Origin: Aquisalinus luteolus
GTDB taxonomy: Bacteria > Pseudomonadota > Alphaproteobacteria > Caulobacterales > Parvularculaceae
DNA length: 64,000 nt
NCBI RefSeq assembly: GCF_009712425.2
Contig: NZ_VCJR02000001.1
Location: 1,678,001 to 1,742,000, forward strand
Direction of reading: 5' to 3'
Numbering within the stretch: the first letter of the stretch is position 1; every line of letters starts with the position of its first letter. A program made the position numbers and the translations under genes. Below are positions 1,226 to 56,789 of this stretch, in pieces. The notes under the pieces are model-generated. The model did no database searches. It had not been told where the DNA came from and saw nothing but the letters and a program-made list of their open reading frames with translations.

Positions 1226-3745
1226 ATGGATACGGGGTCGCAGGCCGTAAGGCTGACCAATGTCGACATTGATAATGCCCTGGATAACAACCACTTCCAG
1301 GTCATTTTTCAGCCGATCTTCGATCTCGCTGATGGCTCCCTCATGCGCGTTGAAAGCTTTGTGCGCTGGACCCATCCGGGCCTCGGCGTACTGCCGCCCG
1401 GTGCCTTCATCTCCTTCTTCGAATCACAGGGCCGGATGGGCGAACTGACCCGACACGTGGTCACGACCGCCCTCGACGATTACATCGCCTGGCGCGGCAC
1501 GGACGGTCCGGGCCTCTCGATCAATCTTGCCCAGTCGGATGTGACCGAGCCGGACTTCGCCAAATGGTTCACCGCCACATTGAAAGACCGCAAGTTCCCG
1601 GCCCGCCTGATCACGCTGGAATGCCCGGCACTGCCCTCCACCATTTCCGTCAAGGACGCCGCCAAGCACTTCACCCGCCTGCGCAAGACCGGCGCAAGGC
1701 TTGCCATAGAGGTCCGCGGACGCGCCAACGACCTGTTGCGCACCATCGACCCGTTCCCGTTCGATGAACTGAAGACCGGCGGGTCAGCCATCCTGCGTTT
1801 TGCCCGCACCATGCGCGGCGGGCCCGGCCTGACCGCCATTTCGGAGCTGCTTGATCTGGCCAAGGCCAATAATGCCGGCATCATTGCCGTCGGGGTCGAG
1901 GACCAGCCGTCGCTCAAGGCCCTTGCCGGTCTCGGCTTTACCGGCGCTCAGGGCAATTATCTCGCCACCATCCGGGCGCTCGATTCCGTCGAGCCACGCC
2001 TTGTCAGCCATGCCCGCAGCGTGCTGTCGCTAGAGCCAGTGGGCGAGGAACAGCTGGAGCAGATGACGAGAGGCGTTTCGGTCGACACAGCACCGGCGGA
2101 AGCTATCAGCACGTCCGACGACGATACCGCCGAGGACAGCACTGACACATCAGAGGCTGCCGAAAAGAAAGCCAGAACGGCAAGAACCCGCAAGGCTATC
2201 GCCGAGGCGAAACTGACGCCTGAGAAGCTGGCCTTGTTGAAGAAAAAAGCCGCGGAAGTCGCCGCCCGCAAGCGCGCCGAGAAAAAGGCAGCCGAGGCCG
2301 AAGCTGCCGAGAGCGATGCGGTAGAAGAGGACACTCAAGAGACCACGGCTGATACTACAGACCTTACTGCATCCCCTGAGCAGGTCGCCGCCGATCTCAA
2401 CGAAACGCACAACACTTTGCGCGAGGTCGCGGCCCGCAAGCAGGCAGAGGAAAACGCCCGGCGTCTCCAGTCGCGCCTGTCCCAGGCCTATGAGCTGCCC
2501 CATGAGAGCGAAATCAGGCACGCGACAGCTCAAAACGGAAATTCCGTATCGAAAAGCGCAAGCAAGACGATAGAGGGCGATGAGGTCGTGATGCCGACGA
2601 TCACCCTGCCCGAACCTTATACGCAGGACGCTTTCAAAAAGGCAGAACCCGATCCCCAGGCGGGCATGGTGCTCGACGCGCCGAAGACCCGTGGCACCGA
2701 AAAATCCGTTGCCCGCACCACCGCTGACGAGGCCGATAGACCCACCGGATCTGGCAAGGCGTCGGAAGAGGCAGCTACCGCAGACACACCGGCAAGCAAC
2801 CATTCCGATGGTCAGGACGTTTCCGGTAGCGTGAAAACAAGCTCCAGATCACGCCGCTCTAAGGCCACTCAAGAGACTGCTTCTGAAGCCGAGGCGCAGG
2901 TCGAAACGGATGTTGAGGATCAGGTGGAAGTGGCTGCCGAGGAGGCGAAATCTGCTGCCGTCCCCCAGACACCCGGCGAGTTCAAGCCCGGCACCTCGGC
3001 GTCTGCTGCCCAACCGGTTGAAGAAACGCCTGAAGAGCAGGATAAAACAACGGATATTACAGCCGCAGCGCCGGACCGCGAGAGCGAATGGTATCCGAAA
3101 TTGCCGCATTTCCGCAGTGGCATCACCGGTTCTCTTCGTCTCACAGGCATATCGGAGACATCACCTGAAGATACAGGTGCAAACAAGGCTTCTGAACCGG
3201 CTAAAGCCGATCTGGATGAAGACATCTTCAACCAGGTTGTCGAGCCGGATAAGGCTACGGAAGGGTCTGCCGCAAAAGCACAGGCAGACACCAAGCCTGA
3301 TCTGATCGCCGAAGAGCTGCCTGTCGAGCCGGTCGTCGTCAGCGCCGAGAGCGATGTCGTGCCGCCACCGCAGGTCGACGAGAACGAAGAGATTTACGCT
3401 GCCGCTGATGAGGAAATCTTCAAGTCGGAAGACGAGGTTCTCGACGAGGCTTTCGAGGGCGCAGCCGAACTCGACCCGACCAAGGTTCATGCCGACGATA
3501 CCGAAGGCCCGATCGAGCTCGACAGCACGGAGCGTGAGATCGCCGGTCGCCTGCGCGGCCTGAGCCGTCCCAGGCGCAAGAGCTGGCTGATGCGTCGCCA
3601 CCGCATCATGCCGACTCATTTCTGGCCGCGGGCGTGGAAACGCAAATGGGAAGAGCTTCGCGCCGACAATGATGCCGACAATGATGACGGCGATTACGAG
3701 CCGGAAGCCGAACCAGCTGCGAAGACAGGCTCCGAAAAAGCTTAG
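1226..3745 (+). CDS. Degenerate EAL-domain protein with long disordered acidic/Ala-rich tail
   Basis: Residues about 10-245 match the EAL (cyclic-di-GMP phosphodiesterase) fold, but the signature EAL is ESF (residues 43-45). The segment that normally reads DDFGTGYSS is replaced by EVRGRANDLLRT, so the paired metal-binding aspartates are gone. Hydrolysis is therefore unlikely; c-di-GMP binding or scaffolding is inferred. Residues about 270-780 are low-complexity, rich in Ala, Glu, Asp, Lys and Thr, with a charged KKKAAE-type helical stretch. The last 70 residues contain a basic Arg/Trp-rich patch and an acidic end. The ATG at 1226 is preferred over 1193 because GGGAG lies five bases upstream of it. 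The stop overlaps the convergent thiO stop by four bases. Confidence 0.8.
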   Translation: MDTGSQAVRLTNVDIDNALDNNHFQVIFQPIFDLADGSLMRVESFVRWTHPGLGVLPPGAFISFFESQGRMGELTRHVVTTALDDYIAWRGTDGPGLSINLAQSDVTEPDFAKWFTATLKDRKFPARLITLECPALPSTISVKDAAKHFTRLRKTGARLAIEVRGRANDLLRTIDPFPFDELKTGGSAILRFARTMRGGPGLTAISELLDLAKANNAGIIAVGVEDQPSLKALAGLGFTGAQGNYLATIRALDSVEPRLVSHARSVLSLEPVGEEQLEQMTRGVSVDTAPAEAISTSDDDTAEDSTDTSEAAEKKARTARTRKAIAEAKLTPEKLALLKKKAAEVAARKRAEKKAAEAEAAESDAVEEDTQETTADTTDLTASPEQVAADLNETHNTLREVAARKQAEENARRLQSRLSQAYELPHESEIRHATAQNGNSVSKSASKTIEGDEVVMPTITLPEPYTQDAFKKAEPDPQAGMVLDAPKTRGTEKSVARTTADEADRPTGSGKASEEAATADTPASNHSDGQDVSGSVKTSSRSRRSKATQETASEAEAQVETDVEDQVEVAAEEAKSAAVPQTPGEFKPGTSASAAQPVEETPEEQDKTTDITAAAPDRESEWYPKLPHFRSGITGSLRLTGISETSPEDTGANKASEPAKADLDEDIFNQVVEPDKATEGSAAKAQADTKPDLIAEELPVEPVVVSAESDVVPPPQVDENEEIYAAADEEIFKSEDEVLDEAFEGAAELDPTKVHADDTEGPIELDSTEREIAGRLRGLSRPRRKSWLMRRHRIMPTHFWPRAWKRKWEELRADNDADNDDGDYEPEAEPAAKTGSEKA

Positions 3746-4857
3746 CCTGCAAACCTGTCCGGCGCCGTCAGTCCCGGATTGCCTGCCCCGCCGACAATCG
3801 CCGCCACCAGCCTTGCCGTCGCCGGAGCCAGCAGAATGCCATTGCGGTGATGACCGCTGGCATAGATCAGGTTTTCTACCCCACTTGACCGGCCAATTAC
3901 CGGCAGGCGATCGGGTGTCGTCGGGCGCAACCCGGCCCAGGCATCGGTGACGGTACACCCCTTCAGCCCCGGCGCGACGGATGCGGCCCCCTCACTCAGA
4001 CTGTCTATGCGGTCTTCATCTGTTGTAAGCGTTTCGATGTGCCGCTCCTCTGTTGCCCCGACAACGAGACGCCCGCCGGCTTTCGGGCACAGATAGGTGC
4101 CGCTGGTCCGGATCACGCAGGAAAGGCTGGCGGTCGCCGCATCGAGGCTCAGCGCCTGCCCTTTGATAGAGAAGAATGGCACCGGTCCCTTCTCAAGCCA
4201 GAAATCGCGTGAAGCGAGCCCGGCAGCAGCGATCACCTGCCCCGCCTCGATCCGCTCTCCGTTGCTGGTCTTCACCGCGCAGATCCTGTCTGCCTCTCTC
4301 TCGAGACTGGTGACAGCGACATCCTCTATCAGCTTCACGCCCATCGCCTTGCACGTCTTCGCTAACGCAGACGCAGCGAGGCGCGGATCGACCTGACCCT
4401 CGTCAGCCAGATAGAGAGCGGTTCCAAACCGTGCATGCAGGCCAGGCTGCAGCTGGTCGAGTTCACCGCGCGACAACATCACCGGTCGCCGCCCGAAGCC
4501 CGAAAGTCTCTCTGCAAGCGACTTCAAGCCCGCCGCCTCCCTGGCGGAGGCCGCCAGCCCGAGCGCACCTGTCATGCGCAGGTCGATATCGATACCGCTG
4601 GTCTCGACAAGCGCCTGTGCCAGCTCCCGCCAGCTGGCGAGCGAGGCCATGGCGAAACGGTGAAAGCTCTCCTGCCTGTCCTCATCGACATGGGCAAGTT
4701 CGAAACCCGGGCACAGCATACCCGCAGCCGCACTCGTGGTGCCCGCTCCCGGCTGCCCGGCCTCGATGAGGCACACATCAGCGCCCTCGCCCGCCAGCCG
4801 GTGCGCGATTGCAAGGCCGATCAGCCCGCCGCCGATGATGACGATGTCCGCTTGCAT
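3742..4857 (-). CDS. thiO: Glycine oxidase-like FAD-dependent amine oxidase (ThiO family)
   Basis: This 371-residue protein is a D-amino-acid-oxidase-type flavoenzyme. It starts with a dinucleotide-binding GGGLIGLAIA motif and an acidic residue ending the second strand, then a Gly/Ala-rich stretch around residue 40 (GTTSAAAGML). The C-terminal part has the GLRPTTPDRLPVIG and GHHRNGILLAPAT signatures of ThiO, which oxidises glycine to iminoglycine for the thiazole ring of thiamine. No other thi gene is adjacent, so glycine oxidase is inferred from family; another small-amine substrate is possible. It converges on the EAL gene with overlapping stop codons. Confidence 0.85.
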   Translation of the reverse strand: MQADIVIIGGGLIGLAIAHRLAGEGADVCLIEAGQPGAGTTSAAAGMLCPGFELAHVDEDRQESFHRFAMASLASWRELAQALVETSGIDIDLRMTGALGLAASAREAAGLKSLAERLSGFGRRPVMLSRGELDQLQPGLHARFGTALYLADEGQVDPRLAASALAKTCKAMGVKLIEDVAVTSLEREADRICAVKTSNGERIEAGQVIAAAGLASRDFWLEKGPVPFFSIKGQALSLDAATASLSCVIRTSGTYLCPKAGGRLVVGATEERHIETLTTDEDRIDSLSEGAASVAPGLKGCTVTDAWAGLRPTTPDRLPVIGRSSGVENLIYASGHHRNGILLAPATARLVAAIVGGAGNPGLTAPDRFAG

Positions 4858-4920
4858 AGCGCGCCTGTCTAGACGAGGTCAGCCTTACTGTCACCTGTGC
4901 AAACCTGTCTCCACGAAGGG

Positions 4921-5041
4921 TTTTCCACAGGTTTTCTCCACCTCTTTTCCACATACAAGCTGGATAACCACAGCCTGGAGTGTCGGATGATCCGCCTTGT
5001 GGAAAACCGGTGGAAAAACTGTTGGAAAATGCTGTGGAAAA
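4921..5041. promoter_or_regulatory. Cluster of inverted DnaA-box-like 9-mers (TTTTCCACA)
   Basis: Four exact copies of TTTTCCACA, which fits the DnaA consensus TTWTNCACA, lie within 121 bases. Two are forward (4921-4929 and 4945-4953) and two are reverse (4998-5006 and 5033-5041). Near matches fill the gaps: ATAACCACA at 4964, the complement of TTTTCCACC at 5009-5017, and a one-base variant at about 5020-5029. A short inverted repeat CGGATGATCCG (4984-4994) sits between the halves. GANTC (CcrM) sites follow at 5072 and 5128. The block lies between divergent thiO and a transporter gene. A DnaA-titration site, a replication origin element or a DnaA-controlled promoter are candidates; none is proved. 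Confidence 0.6.
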
Positions 5042-5133
5042 CTCTCCGCGCTCCGCCCTGCAATGGACAAAGAATCATTGCGATAAGGGCCGCATCACTT
5101 CACCTTTCAACCTGCAGCGGAAAACGAGATTCC

Positions 5134-6366
5134 ATGGCGTATTTTGTGGCGATAGCCGCGATGGTGCTTATTGCCGTCGCGCTGACCCGGCTTACCCGTT
5201 CAGGCCTGATGCAGCGCTTGTCGACCCGGCCAGCTGTCATCCTGTCCGTGGCAGTGGGGGTTGGCTGCCTCTACCAGCTGCTACGCCTGCCTGAACTGGA
5301 ACATGACATCCTCAGCCGGCTCGCCGCTGGCGGTCTCGCCGCGCTTGCCTTCATCGCCGGACTGCAGTTCCGCGTCTCGAAACTGATGCGCCAGTCGCCT
5401 GCCGCGCTCCGGCTCGCGACCATCGCCGGCCCCCTCTTCCTGATTGCTGCGGCCATCTCCGCCTTTATCTTCATGCCCAGCCTGTCAATCTGGTCGGCGC
5501 TGCTCATTGGCGGAGCGCTGATGCTGAACGGCGCGGCCATCGACCGCCGGGCCATCACCGGGTCCTCAGCCCCCGGCGACGTGAAGACAACCGTAGAGCT
5601 GGAAAGCGCCGCCGCCCTCGTCATTGGCCTGCCCCTCGTCATCATTATCGAGCTTCTTTCAGACGCGCCTTTCTCCGCCGCCAATGGCGTGATCGAGACC
5701 GGCGTGTTCCGGGCGACCATCGGCTTCGGCATTGGCGGTGCCATCGGCCTGATCGGCGGTCGTCTTTCCAAGCGTTATGCCGGACCGCGCAAACAGGACG
5801 AAGGCGACTATCGCCGCCTCGCCTTCGCTTTTGGCAGCGGCATCGCTGCCTTCCTGCTTGCGCCTCTGTTACAGGGCGAAGCCATTATCGCTGCCGGGGC
5901 TGCCGGCCTGATCTGGTCGGAGGAAGGCTGCCTTTCCGCCACCCGCCGCCGCGACCTGCGCCAGAAATTCGACCATGCGATCAAGCCGGTCGCCTATGCC
6001 GTCTTCGGCTTCATCCTCGGTCCCAGCCTGTTGCAGGCGGATATTCTCATCATCCTGTTCTCCATTGGCGCGATCACCGTATTGCGCATCGGTCCGCGCC
6101 TCATCGCCCTGTCGTCGCTGGGCATGAACTCCCACCAGCAGGCTTTCCTTGCCTGGTTCGGCGGCGCGCCCGGTGCCGCCTCGGCTCTTTATCTCATCAA
6201 ACTGATGGGCATCAGCGCCCTGATGGATCAGGAGATGGTACTGACCATTGGGACGACCTGCGTCTTCATCGCCATTATCGGCACGCGCCTTTCATCGAAA
6301 CCCCTTGCGAGCTATTTCATCCGCCAGCACGCCCTCGCCCGCAAGCGCCGCTTCTACACCTCCTGA
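5134..6366 (+). CDS. CPA-type cation:proton antiporter-like membrane protein, ion-site motif altered
   Basis: A 410-residue protein with about 12 hydrophobic segments. Its layout resembles CPA1-family Na+/H+ exchangers: LAFIAGLQFR near residue 71 corresponds to the FxAGL helix and AFLAWFGGAPGA to the late GWFGPRG helix. Where CPA1 members have a GESxxND motif, this protein has LESAAAL (residues 156-162), so the Asn-Asp pair is missing. It may transport by another mechanism or have a regulatory role. The open frame extends back to 4897, but that part crosses the box cluster and looks non-coding; ATG at 5134 begins directly with the first membrane helix. Confidence 0.65.
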   Translation: MAYFVAIAAMVLIAVALTRLTRSGLMQRLSTRPAVILSVAVGVGCLYQLLRLPELEHDILSRLAAGGLAALAFIAGLQFRVSKLMRQSPAALRLATIAGPLFLIAAAISAFIFMPSLSIWSALLIGGALMLNGAAIDRRAITGSSAPGDVKTTVELESAAALVIGLPLVIIIELLSDAPFSAANGVIETGVFRATIGFGIGGAIGLIGGRLSKRYAGPRKQDEGDYRRLAFAFGSGIAAFLLAPLLQGEAIIAAGAAGLIWSEEGCLSATRRRDLRQKFDHAIKPVAYAVFGFILGPSLLQADILIILFSIGAITVLRIGPRLIALSSLGMNSHQQAFLAWFGGAPGAASALYLIKLMGISALMDQEMVLTIGTTCVFIAIIGTRLSSKPLASYFIRQHALARKRRFYTS

Positions 6367-54059: not shown

Positions 54060-56789
54060 TCATTCAAGGTACGGATAGTACCTCATGATAAGCTTTATCG
54101 TGTCGAACATCGAAATGAATTTGAACTGTTTGAAGTAGAGGTTTCTCAATTGCATCGCTGAAATAATAACCGAACTAGCGCTATCTGGTGCAGGGTTCAT
54201 GTCGAACAGCACCTGGGCATGGTCGAGCGACTGCTTGAATATACCGATCGCTACCGAGCTGTTGCCCTGCGCCGCTTCGAGTGACGCTGTCTGCTGTAAT
54301 GCAATAACCAGATCTCGCCTTGCACCCGCATCTCCAACCCAGTCATACAGCCTCTGGGCAATGCGCAGATTGTCATCAAACAGTTCACGCGCGACGTCGA
54401 AAGCCCTGTCTTCGAGCGCTATTCTGCCCAGTCGACCGAGGGCAGCAACCGGCATCCTTTGAGCAATTGGTGTCACTCTTTTCTCGGCAATGAACCGTGA
54501 GTGAGCCAACGATTCTTCAAAATGTCCTTTTGCAAGTTCTCTTTTACCAACTGCCAAATAGTAGTCTCCGGCACGCTCAAGGGCGGCGGATAGATTCTGC
54601 CTGTCCGTCATATCTTGCGTTTGCTCAAACAGCTCCCCTGCATGGGTCATCAATTCAGGAATCAGCGTCCCGACGCCCTCATGATTGTGCTTGGAGTTTT
54701 CAATATCACAAAGAATGCCAATCGCTTCGAGTAATCCCCGGCGATTGGAAAAGGTCCCTTTTTCTTTATAATATTCTCTTGAATAGGACAGCGCCTCTCT
54801 GGCAAATTGCTCAGCCCCTGTGATTTCTCCTTTCTGGAAAAGCAGCTTCGTCATCTCCTTGCAGGAGATAATGATTTTGTGATTGAATGCCGCTTCGGGC
54901 AGCCCAGCCATTTCAGTTCTTGCCAACTGTATAGACTGCTTCAGCACTGTCTCGGCTTCATCGAGCTGGCCTGCTTTCATCAGCGCCGTGCCGTACCTTT
55001 GCAGATAGTGGGCACGATCAAAATGATTCATGAAAACGTCCGCACCAGGGTCTTCTTTCAAAATCTGAGGCATCATCGCGCGGTACCAGCCAATGGCGTA
55101 ACCAGCTCTCCCCATCCCCAGGATCACACCCAGCATCTTGTCGAGTCCATAGATCGAGTGCGGATCGATCACTACTTTTTCGGGATCGAATTGATCCAGA
55201 ACGCTTCTCGCCAAGGCGTCACTTTCTCTGTATGCGTCCCTGTGCTCAAGCCTCAAGACAGCCATGTGTGCCACCTCGATAACGTCCCGAAAAGCCTCGC
55301 CGCCCTCGGCAATTGCCAAGTCCAGCAGCACTTCCAGCTCTGCATCCTCGGCAGTTTCAGTGGATATGCCCATCGCGGCTTCGCGAACTGCGCGCAACGC
55401 CTCCTGTGCCTGCGCTTCATCTACGAGATCCTGTAGTCTCTGGCGTGCCGCTTCCTGATAAAGGCGCGTGCGAAACTCCTGCTTATCCATTAGCGAGGAA
55501 GAAACAAAAGCGTAGGGATTTTCGGCGGCATCCAGACCTGCGTCCGGTTCCGGCAAGGCCAGTTTTTCCGCAACAGCCAAAGCGAGCTTGCGGGAGAACT
55601 TGACCCCCTGCAGGCTGGCCGCTGCCAGCGAACCCTGTACGCTCTGTGATGTTTCACACAGGCGCTCATAGATCAGGTCAATCAGATCGCATTCCATGAC
55701 ATAGCGCTCACCCTCTTCCGTCAGGGGGTTGAGCTGATCTCTTCCCGTGAAATAACGCGGTTTGGCGGCAAATTCCGCAACCAGCTCATCCATGAAAAGT
55801 GGATTGCCATCAGCCCGTTCCGCGAACAGCGTGACCTGTGCATCGCTCAAGCCCGGGAAAGCCGCTCTGACCATCGCCTCCAGACCGGAAAGACGGTCAA
55901 GTTCCAGCGTCGTCATACAGTCACCATGCGCAACGCTCAGGCTGGCCAAATGTTGCTGTTCACCACCGGAGGACCATTGTGCCCACTCACGCTGCCACGA
56001 AGTAATGACCACCATGATGGACCAGTTCTCCGTTCTGGCCTTCTGAAGCAGGTCCTCGACAAAGGCCGTGATCGACGCATCCTTGTCACTCCATTGTGCA
56101 TCGTCGATCAGCAGGACCACAGGTTTCGGCTCAATGCCGGGAGGGGGTTTATGGACGACCGCCCGCAACAGAAGCGCAATCTGTTCAGTCAGGTCCAATT
56201 CTGCGCGTTTGGCTGTCTCGTCGCCACTATGGCTGCGGATCTCATCTTCTTCGCGCGCGGCCTGTCTTTCATCATAAGCCGCCTTGCCGATATCATAAGC
56301 GGTCATGCCGAGACCTATAAACGTGCCAAAGACCGGAATGGCCGTAAGCAACGTGCCACCGGCAGCCATTGCCAATGTCTGGTTACGGGCATCCCGTCGG
56401 CTCTTGCCCTGAAACGAGGCTTCGAGCGAAGCCAGATGCGGCTTCAGTACCTGCAGCCCAGACCATAGGCACCCACCCGCATTGATGTTCCGTCGACCGG
56501 GATCGGAGATTCGCAATCCCCACCATAGAAAGGACGGATCGGTATCAGCTTGACCGCAATCACGCGGATCTGGATTGACCTCAAGATTTTTCCGATCCCG
56601 CGCAAGGCGGTCAGGCCAGTAGCCTCCCTGGTCTTCACTCAGGGAAAGCCAGTTATAGAACTCCTGGGCAAGGCGTGTCTTGCCAAACCCGCTCTCGGCC
56701 AAAAGCACCGCGACTTGGGGAGAACCAGCTTTCGCCTTCTCCCAGAGCTGTTGCAACGTATTCAGCTCACCTTTCCGGCCTATGAACAT
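54060..56789 (-). CDS. Large STAND-type ATPase with TPR-like repeats and internal hydrophobic hairpin
   Basis: A 909-residue protein. It opens with FIGRKGEL, as in AAA_16 STAND ATPases. Walker A is AESGFGKT (residues 31-38, Ala at the usual first Gly) and Walker B VVLLIDDAQW (about 224-233). The GxP element is DGNPLF. Between the Walker motifs, residues about 139-168 form a Gly/Ala-rich hydrophobic hairpin (AAGGTLLTAIPVFGTFIGLG). The C-terminal half (about 500-880) is helical repeats, TPR-like. There is no obvious DNA-binding or enzymatic effector domain. The coding DNA is visibly AT-richer than its neighbours, suggesting transfer. GGAGG precedes ATG. A sensor of stress, phage or peptides is conceivable but not shown. 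Confidence 0.82.
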   Translation of the reverse strand: MFIGRKGELNTLQQLWEKAKAGSPQVAVLLAESGFGKTRLAQEFYNWLSLSEDQGGYWPDRLARDRKNLEVNPDPRDCGQADTDPSFLWWGLRISDPGRRNINAGGCLWSGLQVLKPHLASLEASFQGKSRRDARNQTLAMAAGGTLLTAIPVFGTFIGLGMTAYDIGKAAYDERQAAREEDEIRSHSGDETAKRAELDLTEQIALLLRAVVHKPPPGIEPKPVVLLIDDAQWSDKDASITAFVEDLLQKARTENWSIMVVITSWQREWAQWSSGGEQQHLASLSVAHGDCMTTLELDRLSGLEAMVRAAFPGLSDAQVTLFAERADGNPLFMDELVAEFAAKPRYFTGRDQLNPLTEEGERYVMECDLIDLIYERLCETSQSVQGSLAAASLQGVKFSRKLALAVAEKLALPEPDAGLDAAENPYAFVSSSLMDKQEFRTRLYQEAARQRLQDLVDEAQAQEALRAVREAAMGISTETAEDAELEVLLDLAIAEGGEAFRDVIEVAHMAVLRLEHRDAYRESDALARSVLDQFDPEKVVIDPHSIYGLDKMLGVILGMGRAGYAIGWYRAMMPQILKEDPGADVFMNHFDRAHYLQRYGTALMKAGQLDEAETVLKQSIQLARTEMAGLPEAAFNHKIIISCKEMTKLLFQKGEITGAEQFAREALSYSREYYKEKGTFSNRRGLLEAIGILCDIENSKHNHEGVGTLIPELMTHAGELFEQTQDMTDRQNLSAALERAGDYYLAVGKRELAKGHFEESLAHSRFIAEKRVTPIAQRMPVAALGRLGRIALEDRAFDVARELFDDNLRIAQRLYDWVGDAGARRDLVIALQQTASLEAAQGNSSVAIGIFKQSLDHAQVLFDMNPAPDSASSVIISAMQLRNLYFKQFKFISMFDTIKLIMRYYPYLE

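Follow-up and report, generated by a model that had tools for sequence, protein, structure and literature searches.

Origin-distant clusters of DnaA boxes

Clusters of DnaA boxes that lie at promoters, far from the replication origin, are already a known kind of feature. The datA locus of Escherichia coli is short, distant from the origin and furnished with strong and weak boxes, and it works with IHF in the hydrolysis of DnaA-ATP. Six DnaA-box clusters outside oriC are known from Bacillus subtilis (Okumura et al. 2012, cited in PMC13220808), with several boxes packed in an intergenic region off the origin. Tandem boxes 2-3 bp apart are found upstream of the DnaA-regulated E. coli genes mioC, nrdAB, purH and polA (PMC11317965, PMC8203912), and DnaA in vivo prefers box pairs separated by 2 or 3 bp in this species, an extra base strongly reducing the binding (PMC11317965). 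The word TTTTCCACA is the mioC/R5 box, whose C at position 5 is bound much better than other fifth-base variants in E. coli (PMC5835720). The oriC of Caulobacter is built from G-boxes and W-boxes with TCCACA and TCCCCA cores (Taylor et al. 2011; PMC4285127), the W-box being a weak DnaA site with the consensus TCCCCA.

In this study, we analyzed a cluster of such boxes in a 64,000-nucleotide stretch of Aquisalinus luteolus DNA (the window; 1.68-1.74 Mb of contig 1). With a probability of about 60%, we read it from its sequence as an extra-oriC set of four strong and three weak DnaA boxes at a divergent promoter, where it would control transcription with some titration of DnaA. It resembles the B. 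subtilis clusters in the dense packing of boxes between genes, and differs from them in number (one instead of six) and in its flanking genes, thiO and an antiporter gene. It shares the tandem spacing and the TTTTCCACA type of box with the E. coli double-box promoters, and especially with mioC, but seven boxes in two opposed arrays are found here, at a divergent promoter. Like datA it is a short, origin-distant locus with strong and weak boxes, whereas its position is that of a promoter element. The two Caulobacter cores match variants in the arrays and origins of Parvularculaceae; unlike the Caulobacter oriC, the cluster described here is no origin and its boxes are of the strong TTTTCCACA type, not TGATCCACA.

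Composition of the box cluster

The cluster spans 121 bp of a region of about 276 bp between two divergent genes. The features are as follows, with positions counted in the window.

3742..4857, minus strand: thiO, glycine oxidase, 371 aa (TIGR02352, 284 bits, cut-off 250.8); start codon 64 bp from the left array
4921..4929, plus strand: DnaA-type box 1, TTTTCCACA; identical in A. flavus
4934..4942, plus strand: box 2, near match TTCTCCACC; 4 bp from box 1 and 2 bp from box 3 (double-box score)
4945..4953, plus strand: box 3, TTTTCCACA; CTTTCCACA in A. flavus
4954..4997, no strand: 44-bp centre; diverged from A. flavus, 17/44 identical
about 4959-4967, minus strand: weak TTATCCAGC-like site inside the centre; TTTTCCCCG at the aligned A. 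flavus position
4998..5006, minus strand: box 4, TTTTCCACA; TTGTCCACA in A. flavus
5009..5017, minus strand: box 5, near match TTTTCCACC; 2 bp from box 4
5021..5029, minus strand: box 6, near match TTTTCCAAC; 3 bp from box 5
5033..5041, minus strand: box 7, TTTTCCACA; 3 bp from box 6, identical in A. flavus
5061..5133, plus strand: presumed antiporter promoter and leader, the promoter role being putative; 63/73 bases kept in A. flavus, GANTC at 5072 and 5128
5134..6366, plus strand: cation/proton antiporter-like membrane protein, 410 aa (Na_H_Exchanger PF00999, 60.5 bits, cut-off 26.2)

The preliminary description, made from the letters of the window, had reported four exact boxes within 121 bases, two per strand, with three near matches between them, and all seven were recovered. 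It had also named both flanking genes rightly, as the profile scores show. The seven boxes form two tandem arrays, three boxes on the thiO side (plus strand: 4921, 4934, 4945) and four on the antiporter side (minus strand: 4998, 5009, 5021, 5033), with edge-to-edge gaps of 4 and 2 bp in the former and 2, 3 and 3 bp in the latter. The same-strand spacing of 2-3 bp known from double-box promoters is thus found throughout the antiporter-side array and in part of the thiO-side array. Read towards its own downstream gene, each array is a series of TGTGGAAAA repeats, in identical orientation relative to that gene. The GANTC sites said to lie alongside are indeed present, two where 0.37 are expected in about 277 bp; they adjoin the cluster on the antiporter side and are not inside it.

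A density above chance had likewise been claimed, and it holds: shuffled versions of the window contain 0.22 TTTTCCACA matches in 64 kb, and not one shuffle out of 100 had as many as the five exact sites of the window. A total of 30 exact sites were found genome-wide, and the 26 outside the cluster are all isolated. The pattern TTTTCC-N4-8-TTTTCC, searched in the whole genome, gives three overlapping matches at the cluster and single matches only elsewhere. Chance can be ruled out as the source of the cluster by the shuffle rate, by the isolation of the other exact sites and by this local accumulation of TTTTCC tandems. When tandem double boxes were ranked over 471 kb, which is 13% of the genome, the cluster took the top four ranks, ahead of the oriC at hemE; the exact-pattern searches covered the entire genome. 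Recurrence of such clusters at many intergenic sites had been named beforehand as the observation that would speak against a replication role. The proposal withstood this count, for no comparable cluster was found elsewhere in the 3.68-Mb genome, and the cluster is also unique in A. flavus.

Several other explanations of the region were tried. A structured RNA or riboswitch of a thiamine gene was rejected, as no Rfam match was found, and so was a defence system, since PADLOC matches neither the thiO nor the antiporter protein. No sigma-70 consensus was found by a promoter scan, and no close relative of the antiporter was found among solved structures.

Conservation in Aquisalinus flavus

Among named relatives, Aquisalinus flavus D11M-2 is the closest, with an antiporter that is 93% identical. 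It has the same gene pair, and the intergenic region can be aligned. In A. flavus, 34 of the 36 bases in the exact boxes are unchanged, as against 46 of 97 among the non-box bases of 4900-5060, a difference with Fisher P=2e-7 in a comparison of two species only; all seven boxes together keep 53 of 64 bases. The two boxes that changed, to CTTTCCACA and TTGTCCACA, still resemble DnaA boxes; in Streptomyces and Mycobacterium the strong box is TTGTCCACA (PMC4285127). Because the exact boxes are conserved against a diverged background, they look selected, in the pattern expected for protein-binding sites.

Position relative to the replication origin

The preliminary description had offered three readings of the cluster: part of a replication origin, a DnaA titration locus, or a divergent promoter controlled by DnaA. 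The first, in which the cluster belongs to the chromosomal origin in a primary or auxiliary role, could call on dense DnaA boxes inverted around a short centre and on the GANTC sites. Its place is taken by hemE. This gene occurs in one copy, and the region upstream of it, which holds TTATCCACA, ATATCCACA, TTATCCACG and TTTTCCCCG and no TTTTCCACA, has by its sequence the classical anatomy of an alphaproteobacterial oriC.

GC skew was determined from 10-kb samples of the genomes (40 in A. flavus), and the cumulative curve places the origin at hemE and not at the cluster. On the complete A. flavus chromosome the minimum lies at 2.67-2.74 Mb, with hemE at 2.716 Mb, and the curve peaks near 1.10-1.18 Mb. 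The cluster of this species, at 0.919 Mb as against 2.72 Mb for oriC, lies within a stretch of constant positive skew, about 1.34 Mb from the hemE origin on a half-chromosome of 1.57 Mb and only some 180-260 kb away from the peak of the skew, which marks the terminus. In the genome that contains the window, one turn of the skew lies near hemE on contig 2 and the reverse turn on contig 1, at about 1.43-1.52 Mb; left and right of the cluster the skew is negative. Nor was an AT-rich unwinding region found: the 44-bp centre is short and of mixed composition by inspection, and the intergenic region has 52% GC. As the skew turns at hemE and has the same sign to the left and right of the cluster in A. 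flavus and in the window genome, we conclude that the cluster is not an origin, and we regard an origin role as very improbable. The cluster is located late in the replichore.

This position bears on the second reading as well. A locus that titrates or inactivates DnaA and so limits initiation, in the manner of datA or of the B. subtilis clusters and with its place at a promoter incidental, would agree with the uniqueness of the cluster in the genome and with its number of strong boxes, which in 121 bp exceeds that of the roughly 450-bp oriC region at hemE. The deletion of the B. subtilis clusters leads to early initiation (PMC13220808). Against it, a cluster so far from the origin has a low copy number and is duplicated late, the arrays that relatives retain at the antiporter promoter all point the same way, and other members of the genus of the window have no such array at the antiporter. 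Titration as the selected function is less likely, given so late a place in the replichore, and we consider a dedicated titration locus unlikely; some titration would be an unavoidable by-product of seven boxes.

Candidate binding protein

DnaA is the best candidate for the protein that reads the boxes. The word TTTTCCACA matches the E. coli consensus TTWTNCACA exactly, and the DnaA-type identity proposed in the preliminary description is well supported at the level of sequence by the motif, the 2-3-bp tandem spacing, the selective conservation and the motif classes shared with the oriC at hemE. The hemE-upstream regions of those Parvularculaceae with arrays hold the word classes of the arrays, namely TTATCCACA, TTTTCCACA and TTTTCCCCG. 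The TCCCCA class is a variant in the arrays of the genera g2 and g9, and it appears as TTTTCCCCG in the hemE-upstream regions of the family. It counts against DnaA that TTTTCCACA is missing from the oriC boxes at hemE in the window genome. A single DnaA is encoded there; it has an N-terminal domain, an ATPase domain and a C-terminal HTH domain, and the signature RDHTTV is kept in its DNA-binding domain. The ATPase domain of this protein (L040:949-2469) looks divergent, with the Walker A GGPGRGKTHLL and a PF00308 score of 110 bits.

Another regulator, for example one dedicated to the antiporter, might instead read the TGTGGAAAA / GGGGATAA direct repeats at 11-12 bp as an operator array. It is conceivable above all in g2, since the arrays of that genus consist mostly of TTATCCCCC/A, a weak-class word outside the strict DnaA consensus, and the single orientation of the arrays upstream of the antiporter would suit it too. 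On the other side, the word, its variants and the 2-3-bp gaps are all DnaA-like, the weak W-box class included, and the words of the arrays recur at the hemE origin. MraZ is a well-known reader of tandem TGG-type repeats. It is disfavoured here: the mraZ promoters of these genomes carry a different box, TGGGA-N5-TGGGA with a 10-bp period, and the cluster repeats are TGTGGAAAA at 11-13 bp. We judge a regulator other than DnaA improbable, slightly more so than a titration locus.

Arrays in other Parvularculaceae

The genes thiO and the antiporter are adjacent in most Parvularculaceae that hold both, usually with 0.8-1.3 kb between them. In the relatives checked (e.g. L086, L097, L105) a reverse-strand gene for a protein of about 190 aa lies in this space, and Aquisalinus has no such gene there. 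The protein shows apparent membrane helices near its C-terminus, and a Pfam search of it gave no match.

Arrays upstream of the orthologous antiporter were found in two other genera. Runs of TTTTCCACA, TTATCCACA and TTATCCCCA are present in three g9 genomes (G059, G060, G061), and TTATCCCCC/A repeats at 11-12 bp in two g2 genomes (G005, G009), with shorter remnants in G008 and G004. The array counts exceed those of shuffles in G059, G060 and G061 of g9 and in G005, G009 and G001 of g2, where none of 300 shuffles reached the count except for G009 (P=0.07); these P values should be taken as optimistic, since the motifs and thresholds were picked after the window was seen. The spacings across the relatives have modes of 11 and 12 bp, and the arrays upstream of the antiporter are always in one orientation. 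Among the genomes compared, no array was found upstream of the antiporter in the large genus g6 or in G006. G011 and G014, which belong to the genus of the window, have neither a close thiO nor an array; the antiporter follows directly after an EAL-domain gene in both (L084, L085). These absences speak against the main reading. From this patchy distribution over genera, the array is either old but patchily kept or has arisen more than once.

A possible counterpart of the left array was seen on the plus strand in G059, as a TTTTCCACG/TTTTCCACA pair, and as a pair in G061. Both were rejected and not counted as related because they are located in coding sequence, in the VEKAVEK codons of the gene for the protein of about 190 aa. 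In g6 and g2 genomes, a block near AATTCAATTTGC...CGGATCAATYCA...TGATTCGGCGC ahead of the antiporter start is strongly conserved and is probably a core promoter or leader element.

Putative function

Of the three readings first offered, control of a divergent promoter fits best, because the two arrays have the same orientation relative to their genes, the boxes precede the presumed antiporter promoter, and relatives carry similar arrays before their antiporter genes; titration may accompany it as a side effect, and the origin drops out. We infer DnaA as the binder, a transcriptional effect of its binding together with the sign of that effect, and whatever titration occurs. In the proposed mechanism, DnaA would assemble cooperatively along both tandem arrays, on 4921-4953 towards thiO and on 4998-5041 towards the antiporter. 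Depending on the level of active DnaA, the bound protein would activate or repress the antiporter gene and, in Aquisalinus, thiO as well, so that both genes would be coupled to the cell cycle, and the array while occupied would withdraw some DnaA from oriC. On the antiporter side, where the array ends 93 bp before the start codon, activation seems somewhat more natural than steric repression. Repression is equally possible on the thiO side, where the array is nearer (64 bp).

A wider proposal, which we put forward tentatively and hold to be doubtful, is that DnaA of Parvularculaceae directly controls the antiporter through a tandem array kept in several genera and thereby ties ion or pH homeostasis to replication status, the array of Aquisalinus having been doubled and inverted so that it captured thiO. 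What would be unusual is the connection of DnaA with an ion antiporter, a target gene that appears partly conserved. If DnaA binds the cluster, an alphaproteobacterial example would be added to the dense, origin-distant clusters of DnaA boxes, together with a testable link from the replication initiator to a membrane ion transporter. The review of transcriptional control by DnaA (PMC8203912) mentions neither an antiporter nor thiO as a target. The cross-genus series of strong TCCACA and weak TCCCCA boxes, at the origin and at the antiporter promoter, offers natural material for the evolution of DnaA sites and their affinity.

Other observations in the window

A single exact TTATCCACA occurs at 1103-1111 in the window, between accC (ending at 1078) and an EAL-domain gene (starting at 1193), and a near match precedes it by about 50 bp; it is one of only nine TTATCCACA sites in the genome. 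At 54060-56789 the window encodes a protein of 909 aa that has a P-loop-like stretch at its N-terminal end, in a local dip of G+C content (53-56%).
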